Source of the DNA: a virus
Reading direction: 5' to 3' (one strand)
Virus record (IMG/VR): IMGVR_UViG_3300049914_000195
Location: 1 to 20,266 of that record
DNA length: 20,266 nucleotides
Position numbers and translations under genes: made by a program. Positions 6,747-9,084 of the stretch are shown piece after piece. The notes beneath the pieces are model-generated. The model worked only from the letters and a program-made list of their open reading frames with translations, was not told where the DNA came from and did not search any database. Each line of letters begins with the position of its first letter. Position 1 is the first letter of the stretch.

Positions 6747-6752
6747 ATGGCA

Positions 6753-8144
6753 ATGCCTGACTTTTCAACGATCATTCAAGACCCCACGATTCGCCAGATC
6801 GTCCAGGAGAACATCCTGGAACGTGCGTTCCACGACGCTCTCTTTCCTCGACTTTTGTACAGAGGAGAAGCGACTCCTCAACTGTGGCCTGCCAATGTAG
6901 GCGACTCGATGGTCTTCACAGGCGTCGGGCTCATCAAGCCGAAGATGGCCCCTTTGGCTCCTGGTCTGGACCCGACCCCGTCGAGCTACCAGTCTGAGCA
7001 ATGGCCTGCGACGATTCAGCAGTACGCAGACACGATCGACACTCACATGCCGACAAGCATCGTGGCGATTGCCAACCTGTTCCTTCGGAATGCTCACCAG
7101 CTCGGAATGTCTGCTGGCCAAGCACTCAATCGCCTCGTTCGTGACCGTCTGTACAACGCGGCTGTGAGTGGGAACACAGTGACGACCGTGGCTCAGGGTG
7201 GTGGTGGCTCTGCTTCGATGCACGTGCAGCGCCTGAACGGGTTCACCAAGGCTCGCCGGCCGGATCTTCCCACCGGGAGCCCGGTTCGGTTCGACACGGT
7301 CTCCGCAACGAACCCTCTCGCAATTACCATTGGAGGCTCGGCTGCTTCCGTGGTTGGTTTCACTCCGGACATTGCTGGAGACGAAGTTGGCCCTGGTGTG
7401 CTCACCCTCGCTGTTGCAACGACTTGGGCTGCACGAGTCGCTGTGCTCGCTTCGGATGCCTCGTTCTTGCAGAGGGTTGGTGGTGGGGCAACCATCGACG
7501 CGCTGACGGCTGCCAACATCATGACTCTTGCGGACATCCGCTCGGTCGTGGCTCGGTTCTGGCAGCAGAACGTTCCGGAGCAGCCTGACGGAAGGTTCCA
7601 CTGTCATCTCTCTCCATCTGCGCAATCCGAGATCTTTGCAGACGCTGAGTTCCAGCGTCTGCTCACGGCTCTGCCGGACTACTACATGTACAAGCAGTTC
7701 GCCCTCGGCGAGCTTCTTGGAGTGGTCTTCTTCCGGAACTCTGAGGCGCCAATCGCCCAGACGGTCGAAGGTGGGCCGACTGCTGTGTACAGCTCTTCGG
7801 ATCCTCTCGCCCTGGAGCTCTATACGACTGGCATCGCAACGGGCATTCCCGTCCAGCACACGCTGTTCGTGGGGCAAGGGCTGATCCATGAGTACTACCA
7901 GGAACTCTCGCAGCTCATCACAGAGGCAGGGGTCACCGGTCGGGTTGGAGAGCCTCGGATCACCAACAACTCCATCGAGGTTTTCTCGGAGCGCATCCAG
8001 CTCATTCTCCGTGCTCCGCTCAACCGCTTGCAGGATCTCGTTTCGACATCCTGGAAGTTCATTGGTGACTGGCCTGCGCGGACGGACGTAACGACTGGTG
8101 ACGGTGCTCGCTACAAGCGCGCCACAGTGATTCAGCACGCATAG
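6753..8144 (+). CDS. Major capsid protein, N4 gp56-like (HK97 fold)
   Basis: I place the start at ATG 6753 because AGGAG at 6741-6745 lies seven bases upstream, whereas the earlier in-frame ATG 6747 is only one base from it. The product is 463 residues. The N-terminus (IIQDPTIRQIVQENILERAF) and the segment TPSSYQSEQWPATIQQYADT look like the N-arm and extended-loop region. The stretch from about residue 258 (ADIRSVVARFWQQNVPEQPD, then FHCHLSPSAQSEIFADAEF) is the recognisable N4 gp56-type core. It is followed by LGVVFFRNSEAPI and a late GQGLIHEYYQELSQLI segment. The length suits this family, which forms the icosahedral shell. The gene follows the scaffold candidate and is followed by a structured non-coding region, not directly by the next gene. 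Confidence 0.88.
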   Translation: MPDFSTIIQDPTIRQIVQENILERAFHDALFPRLLYRGEATPQLWPANVGDSMVFTGVGLIKPKMAPLAPGLDPTPSSYQSEQWPATIQQYADTIDTHMPTSIVAIANLFLRNAHQLGMSAGQALNRLVRDRLYNAAVSGNTVTTVAQGGGGSASMHVQRLNGFTKARRPDLPTGSPVRFDTVSATNPLAITIGGSAASVVGFTPDIAGDEVGPGVLTLAVATTWAARVAVLASDASFLQRVGGGATIDALTAANIMTLADIRSVVARFWQQNVPEQPDGRFHCHLSPSAQSEIFADAEFQRLLTALPDYYMYKQFALGELLGVVFFRNSEAPIAQTVEGGPTAVYSSSDPLALELYTTGIATGIPVQHTLFVGQGLIHEYYQELSQLITEAGVTGRVGEPRITNNSIEVFSERIQLILRAPLNRLQDLVSTSWKFIGDWPARTDVTTGDGARYKRATVIQHA

Positions 8145-8145
8145 G

Positions 8146-8607
8146 AGCCATAGGCTTCATGGGCTGTGTTGCTGCCATCGTTCTACTTTTGCAGGGCTTG
8201 TCCCTGCATTCCGGGAGCCTTTGTGCTCCCATCTCGGCTGCCTTTGTGCAGCCTCTAGGAGCGCATGAACGACAGTTCATTTCAGGTCTAGCTGACGCTG
8301 TGACCTGGCACTCCGCAGACTCTAGATTACCTTTCGGTGATCGCGCCAGTGAGTCTGTTTACGGGCCTTTGATCCCACGGTCGGGATCTCTTTTGGCCCT
8401 GTGCAGAGAAGCAAACCCTGGCTTTTGCCATGGAACCGCTTTCTCTGCTTTTGGTGGCCCCACCTTCGCAGCTTTTTGCTGCACTCATTGGTGTGGACAT
8501 TTCGATGCGCTTTACGCTCATCAAAGTAGAGCGCTGCTCGGCTCGTCTCTGTTACCCCTACGGCTCGGGTAGAGCCGGTTATTACAGAGACATCTTGCAG
8601 CGCTCTG
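8146..8607 (+). ncRNA. Candidate large ornate structured RNA after the capsid gene
   Basis: There is no convincing gene here, but the region is a nearly continuous series of plus-strand hairpins. Stems (5' arm/3' arm): AGCCAT 8146-8151 with 8159-8165 (one bulge); TGCAGGG 8190-8196/8202-8208; GGGAGC 8213-8218/8225-8230; GGCTGC 8236-8241/8248-8253; ATGAAC 8265-8270/8275-8280; CAGGTC 8283-8288/8302-8307 enclosing AGC/GCT; CAGACTC 8316-8322/8351-8357 enclosing GATTACC 8325-8331/8336-8342 (one G-U); GGGCC 8363-8367/8395-8399 enclosing GATCCC 8371-8376/8383-8388; GCAGAGAAGC 8403-8412/8438-8448 (one bulge) enclosing TGGC/GCCA; GGTG 8453-8456/8461-8464; GCAGC 8468-8472/8478-8482; GATG 8504-8507/8519-8522; and AGAGCGCTGC 8528-8537/8597-8606 enclosing GTCTCTGT 8545-8552/8584-8591 and CGGCTC 8561-8566/8572-8577. 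By my count about 240 of 462 bases pair locally. The RNA would be co-transcribed with the capsid gene. Ends and function are unknown. Confidence 0.8.
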
Positions 8608-8631
8608 CCACCGTTCCTCAAGGAGAACATC

Positions 8632-9084
8632 ATGGCGAAGAAGGGCTTTGATCCAATCGAGAACGCCAAGGCGACCACGAAGGCATCTCCTGGAAGAGCT
8701 AGCACTCCAGAAGCTTCTGAGCCTGCACAACCATCCCAGCCTCTTCGAGCGAGGGGCGCACCTGGTGTTCTGGAGAACAGAGAGGCTCTGCAAGAGGGAG
8801 CTGACCACGAAACACATACGACTTTCGTGGGTGGATGTGAGGGGTGCGCAGCGGACGCCGCACGTGCAGCGGCCGAGCAGAAGGCAAAGGATGAAGAGAT
8901 TGCCAAGGCTATCCCGGATTTTGCACCAACCATCGAAGCACAGCGCTTTCGTGTGACTGAGCGCAAGATCATCATGAGCAATGGGTCACTGACAACGCTG
9001 GCAGCAGGGTCGATTGTCAGTGTACTGACGCATGACCTTGCGTCCTTGCGTACTCAAAACGTGAAGATGGAGCCTGTAGAGTAG
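8632..9084 (+). CDS. Hypothetical phage protein with conserved C-terminal beta segment
   Basis: This 150-residue protein starts at ATG 8632 with AAGGAG at 8620-8625 as ribosome binding site. Residues 1-60 are low-complexity and proline and alanine-rich, followed by a GGCEGC knuckle near 67-72 and a charged alanine-rich helix (ADAARAAAEQKAKDEEIAKA). The last 45 residues (FRVTERKIIMSNGSLTTLAAGSIVS, ending LRTQNVKMEPVE) resemble a tail module I have seen in proteins encoded just after phage capsid genes, where a short strand pair is followed by a helix and a final EPVE-like end. A capsid-associated or connector-adjacent role is plausible but not shown. It is the first gene after the structured RNA region. 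Confidence 0.75.
   Translation: MAKKGFDPIENAKATTKASPGRASTPEASEPAQPSQPLRARGAPGVLENREALQEGADHETHTTFVGGCEGCAADAARAAAEQKAKDEEIAKAIPDFAPTIEAQRFRVTERKIIMSNGSLTTLAAGSIVSVLTHDLASLRTQNVKMEPVE

Follow-up and report, generated by a model that had tools for sequence, protein, structure and literature searches.

To our knowledge, very few natural RNAs as large and ordered as the one described here are known in bacteria and phages. HEARO is a large multidomain bacterial RNA, and the pRNA of phage phi29 is a phage RNA tied to head morphogenesis. Of the other large RNAs, GOLLD has a conserved 3' region and a less conserved 5' region, and ROOL contains pseudoknots and is dispensable in one host (PMC12286853). 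The functions of GOLLD and ROOL are unsolved, and an RNA of the capsid operon adds another large phage family.

We analysed a 20,266-nt stretch of viral DNA from IMG/VR (hereafter, the window). We consider it about 95% probable that this phage and other uncultured environmental tailed phages carry, between the major capsid protein (MCP) gene and the next gene, g150, a large structured RNA that has several domains, is read on the same strand as the capsid mRNA and belongs to a family not catalogued before. Novelty is meant relative to Rfam 15 and to a literature search of limited scope (a 2017 survey of 224 RNA motifs lies outside it), in which the RNA is undescribed. The conserved part measures about 355 nt (8258-8612), or up to about 490 nt with the 5' hairpins, so that the RNA spans roughly 350-500 bases. 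We would class it as a new family among the large ornate RNAs.

Folding and coding potential of the gap behind the capsid gene

A gap of 487 nt separates the capsid gene from the next gene (Table 1). A sequence-only reading had described about 460 bases here as hairpin-rich, without a convincing gene and with more local pairing than the other gaps, and further analysis bore this out. The RNA fold of 8140-8631 has an energy of -224.5 kcal/mol compared with -166.9 +/- 6.3 kcal/mol for 100 dinucleotide shuffles (z = -9.2), and none of the 100 shuffles reached the same energy. When 67 consecutive 300-nt segments of the window were scanned, the two that cover the gap, 8101-8400 (-31 kcal/mol) and 8401-8700 (-29 kcal/mol), ranked highest in excess stability; the third-ranked segment had -16 kcal/mol and the median was -3.6 kcal/mol.

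The same reading had named three outcomes that would contradict it, namely folding no better than in shuffles, relatives lacking compensatory changes, and a strongly conserved protein encoded in the interval; all three were checked and none was observed. The sole long ORF of the gap (8159-8572, 137 aa) matched no PHROG family, and its frame is not kept, as relatives read the core as ANPGF.HGTA, LANPGFVPWN or ANPAFLRLEP in differing frames. GC-rich DNA folds well and this one ORF is present, which could suggest a chance structure or a hidden coding region. However, the shuffle test, the slide and cross-clade tests given below and the lack of a conserved frame all contradict such an explanation, which we find hardly credible; judged from the aligned sequences, it is already refuted by covariation.

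A fold shared by two clades

Searching with the MCP gave 80 loci in IMG/VR, plus a single contig from a genome collection. In most relatives, the MCP stop codon and the g150/g133 genes are separated by non-coding sequence of several hundred bases that shows an excess of folding energy. Conspicuous there is an element consisting of GCAAACCC, a variable hairpin and UGGAACCGC, with flanking arms that are divergent yet complementary (domain D). When all viral contigs were scanned for this pattern, 117 stretches were reported and 114 of them examined. Of the 46 sites with a P2 stem of at least 4 pairs, 45 also encode capsid protein; at the other (L144) the contig ends inside the RNA and the sequence continues into g150. 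Thus, all 46 database sites with the motif and the P2 stem fit the MCP-RNA-g150 context, and 65 of the 68 stretches without the stem have no capsid match. Each of 9 RNA-bearing records has one strong RNA site.

The alignments used were anchored or plain ones. For the D hairpin we aligned 35 core sequences (A1). Twelve columns are invariant, 99.5% of the cells of the P2 helix are paired, and double changes occur in 11 of the 15 D-hairpin pairs. Covariation across the 35 sequences was 0.54, compared with 0.13 for shuffled and 0.08-0.15 for slid controls. A D-hairpin model that included the window in its training set matches 8399-8451 (48 bits, E 7e-9). Further 3', 32 sequences have in common a pseudoknot with an approximate consensus of CCC-NNA-CGNNN-GGG-UWA-N'N'N'CG. 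Covariation of its stem 2 was 0.72 against 0.16 when shuffled, with the partners in most rows picked by eye, and a mechanical descriptor of the pseudoknot scored at least 22 in more than 20 real loci, while 85 shuffled loci reached 21 at most. The P5 helix, which starts mostly 25-33 nt ahead of the pseudoknot, reaches up to 16 bp, is unrelated in sequence between phages and ends at a conserved GCCRCC; its median length was 12.5 bp with its own partner and 5 bp with swapped partners. The GCCRCC in turn pairs with GGYGGC just 3' of the D hairpin to form P3. Searches for domain B and P3 were statistically weaker in the window's own clade, and support for both comes mainly from a sister clade.

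This sister clade (L199-L222), with an MCP about 46% identical, also carries the RNA, with its domains in the same order as in the window. Eleven sister-clade RNAs were aligned by sequence alone (A3). RNAalifold predicted 126 pairs, and after two doubtful helix pieces were dropped and pseudoknot stem 1 was added, the final model had 123 pairs in 20 helices, 96% paired. The compensatory changes to be looked for in relatives are present: 64 of the 123 pairs show double compensatory changes, where shuffling leads one to expect 32 and sliding gave 8-16, and the covariation score was 0.43 compared with 0.18 shuffled and less than 0.09 slid. A covariance model (R2) of the sister clade's D-to-3' part, with the window excluded from training, found the window RNA at 8394-8619 (E 6e-7, a rough value owing to short calibration) and also matched about 30 other loci behind the MCP gene. 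The 3' domain closed by P3, which contains two hairpins, P5, P6 and the pseudoknot, is present in the window by this match.

Table 1. Features of the capsid-g150 junction in window coordinates; A1 and A3 are the alignments described in the text.
Feature	Position	Strand	Basis or detail
MCP gene, upstream neighbour	6747..8144	+	phrog_1357 major head protein, E 8e-12
5' hairpins	8145-8158, 8191-8207, 8213-8230, 8236-8253	+	predicted local folds
Domain A, three-way junction GGAGCGC..(hairpin)UU(hairpin)..GCACUCC	8258..8314	+	equivalent of A3 helices 3-5
Domain B, stem, inner hairpin and conserved one-sided bulge	8316..8357	+	A3 helices 6-7
Domain C, GGGCC..CCCACGGUCGGG..GGCCC	8363..8399	+	fold
Domain D	8403..8448	+	P1 8403-8410/8440-8448; P2 hairpin 8419-8430; A1 covariation
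Conserved internal loop of domain D	8411-8418 GCAAACCC / 8431-8439 UGGAACCGC	+	A1 alignment
P3 5' strand, GGUGGC	8453..8458	+	pairs with 8607-8612, closing the 3' domain; A3 helix 14
P5 5' strand	8528..8537	+	pairs with 8597-8606
P6 5' strand	8545..8551	+	pairs with 8585-8591; A3 helix 18
H-type pseudoknot, CCC-UA-CGGCUC-GGG-UA-GAGCCG	8555..8577	+	both stems paired in 32/32 sequences
P5 3' strand and P3 3' strand (GCCACC), 3' end of RNA	8597..8612	+	
Short pyrimidine stretch and RBS AAGGAG of next gene	8613..8631	+	sequence
g150, next gene, small protein	8632..9084	+	DPxExAK motif in N-terminal part, most members

Within the individual domains, both inner hairpins of domain A show compensatory changes in A3, the bulge of domain B is GCGCCA in the window (consensus approximately YRCRCCA), and a CCCNCGGUCGGG hairpin in domain C recurs in several relatives. 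Folding the one sequence to minimum energy does not recover P3 or the closing stem of domain B, so the comparative model is preferable for both. The RNA had been placed at 8146-8607; comparison backs 8258-8612, whereas the hairpins at 8145-8253 are real folds of a local kind. In most relatives, too, the MCP stop codon is followed by hairpins, but their sequence differs.

The CGGU loop of domain C is complementary to ACCG in the 3' strand of the D internal loop, and a tertiary contact between them is possible; the near-invariant letters of the D loop place such a contact beyond the reach of covariation. CUUCGG, which forms a UUCG tetraloop, occurs at 4.9 per kb in the RNA region of relatives and 0.3 per kb in the MCP gene, a 16-fold difference.

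With respect to strand, the A3 helices contain 118 GU and 7 AC cells when read on the capsid-sense strand, a count that is partly circular because the structure was predicted on that strand. The energy comparison is not circular, and gave a consensus of -156 on the capsid-sense strand and -129 on the opposite strand. The element is therefore read on the strand of the capsid mRNA, and with base pairs kept by matching changes in dozens of relatives it almost certainly acts as RNA rather than encoding a protein.

Across the whole window no Rfam model reached its gathering score, and at permissive scores there was no credible match in the gap or in the RNAs of relatives. Permissive matches to sX14, the L31 leader, miRNA models, RAGATH-25 and groES scored far below gathering and were rejected. 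The Rfam covariance models of GOLLD, ROOL and HEARO did not match, in agreement with the earlier reading, which could match the sequence to neither GOLLD nor ROOL, and the same was true of group I and II introns and Rfam ribozymes. The compact pseudoknotted fold, the highly conserved internal loop and the position at an operon junction would suit a ribozyme or a processing element whose cut would separate the capsid part of the transcript from the downstream genes. We think this very improbable, because no Rfam ribozyme family matches even at permissive thresholds and because L217 (4206-4363) and L220 (2351-2508) have cleanly deleted the conserved D hairpin and kept all other domains. Domain D is thus a detachable module. 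Taken together, the 64 of 123 compensatory pairs, the pseudoknot and the lack of an Rfam relative strongly support the earlier proposal that an ornate RNA of a new kind follows the major capsid gene.

Distribution and neighbouring genes

The MCP of the window is 25-30% identical to the annotated capsid proteins of phages Kromp and phiKX1. The RNA is absent from these two isolated phages and from some clades, and BLASTN of two of the RNAs against 50,697 phage records gave no match. On a tree of 79 capsid proteins (midpoint root, many weak forks, big-gap loci scored as RNA-bearing), 18 RNA-less loci with gaps of about 80-150 nt need at least five presence/absence changes. Since the deep rows L094, L087 and L183 carry the RNA, repeated loss is likelier than repeated gain, and the comparison suggests that the RNA was probably lost several times. 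Horizontal transfer, suggested by L214, was rejected given that its MCP is 67% identical to that of L004. Matches of the model R1 in the phylum of L082 (2 of 201 genomes) had no capsid context and were taken as chance.

Downstream, most g150 proteins carry a DPLExAK motif close to the N-terminus, followed by a proline-rich middle and, at the C-terminus, a small conserved domain without a Pfam or PDB match. Free-standing ORFs, several HNH-like by eye, are repeatedly inserted around the MCP-RNA-g150 junction, and in L006 and L012 they follow g150. L077 also has an ORF that resembles dCTP deaminase by eye, and the window has an HNH homing-type endonuclease of its own (PF13392, E 4e-6) at 2192-2671, amid the structural genes. 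Near the RNA, scanning for sigma-70 promoters gave nothing that exceeded shuffles.

The position of the RNA bears on a possible role in cis. Wherever a start codon was found, the closing strand GCCRCC nearly always lies about 20-60 nt ahead of it, and the RNA ends at the g150 ribosome-binding site. Genes are inserted between MCP and RNA in L031, L070, L077 and L096, and none between RNA and g150 in the loci examined; a terminator-like hairpin sits at the same junction in 11 of the 18 RNA-less loci. Each of these observations favours a device that would set the ratio of the high-copy capsid gene to the low-copy head genes on its other side, by partial termination at the RNA 3' end or by control of the g150 ribosome-binding site. 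The fixed MCP-g150 position and the MCP-side insertions are also what is expected of a cis element of g150; phage head genes are syntenic, so the fixed position is weak evidence either way. Against a cis device, the U tract is short, just UU in the window, and a body of 350-500 nt with a pseudoknot and conserved internal loops far exceeds what attenuation needs. We regard such a device as a serious possibility, albeit a doubtful one.

Possible roles and comparison with known RNAs

The fold is conserved on the capsid-sense strand and stands in a fixed position, in single copy and with optional presence. Of the earlier suggestion that the RNA might be abundant, co-produced with capsid mRNA and active in assembly, packaging or control, the sequences bear on the shared strand and the fixed position between MCP and the next gene. 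Because no known attenuator appears to need such a body, we tentatively and slightly favour a discrete ornate RNA. It would be transcribed with the capsid operon, presumably late in infection, and would fold co-transcriptionally into a compact body, beginning with domains A to D and continuing with the domain closed by P3, which contains P5, P6 and the pseudoknot. It may then accumulate as a discrete or processed species and, by analogy with other ornate phage RNAs, could act in trans as a folded RNA, alone or with protein. Its size, pseudoknot, near-invariant unpaired letters, UUCG caps, modular domains and dispensability resemble features of GOLLD and ROOL, and its absence from some clades, Kromp and phiKX1 parallels the non-essential ROOL (PMC12286853).

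A simpler idea from the outset was a set of stabilising or attenuating hairpins. As a stabiliser, the row of strong hairpins would shield the capsid mRNA against exonucleases attacking its 3' end, which is consistent with the many UUCG-type caps and with hairpins directly behind the MCP stop codon in most relatives. Protection, however, needs no pseudoknot, near-invariant internal loop letters or ordered domains, and L077 keeps the RNA even though more than 2 kb of other genes intervene after the MCP gene. We consider a stabiliser quite unlikely, and simple hairpins of either kind leave the pseudoknot, the near-invariant internal loop, the ordered multidomain architecture and retention at about 45% MCP identity unexplained.

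The RNA might instead be a structural or assembly part of late infection, forming oligomers or attaching to the prohead, the portal or the packaging machinery; we regard this as unlikely. If it were true, head morphogenesis would use a large RNA part unlike phi29 pRNA. The fixed place in the capsid operon, together with natural RNA-less relatives, makes a role in head gene expression or assembly open to comparison or deletion.

Compared with this RNA, phi29 pRNA is much smaller, and it gave no match in the Rfam scan. OLE RNA is large, bacterial and, as here, multidomain, with no Rfam match to the window RNA. Unlike HEARO, this RNA has no attached conserved HNH gene, and nearby HNH-like genes are sporadic and lie outside it. 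ROOL is phage-borne, of similar size, pseudoknotted and dispensable, like this RNA, but often lies near tRNA islands (a frequent, not universal, context for both ROOL and GOLLD), whereas this RNA always lies behind the MCP gene. Assembly into homo-oligomeric cages is a further mark of ROOL and GOLLD. GOLLD is longer and also often near tRNA islands, whereas this RNA lies at the capsid gene in a window with no tRNA; like this RNA, GOLLD is a large ornate RNA of phages and prophages with a conserved 3' region and a less conserved 5' region.
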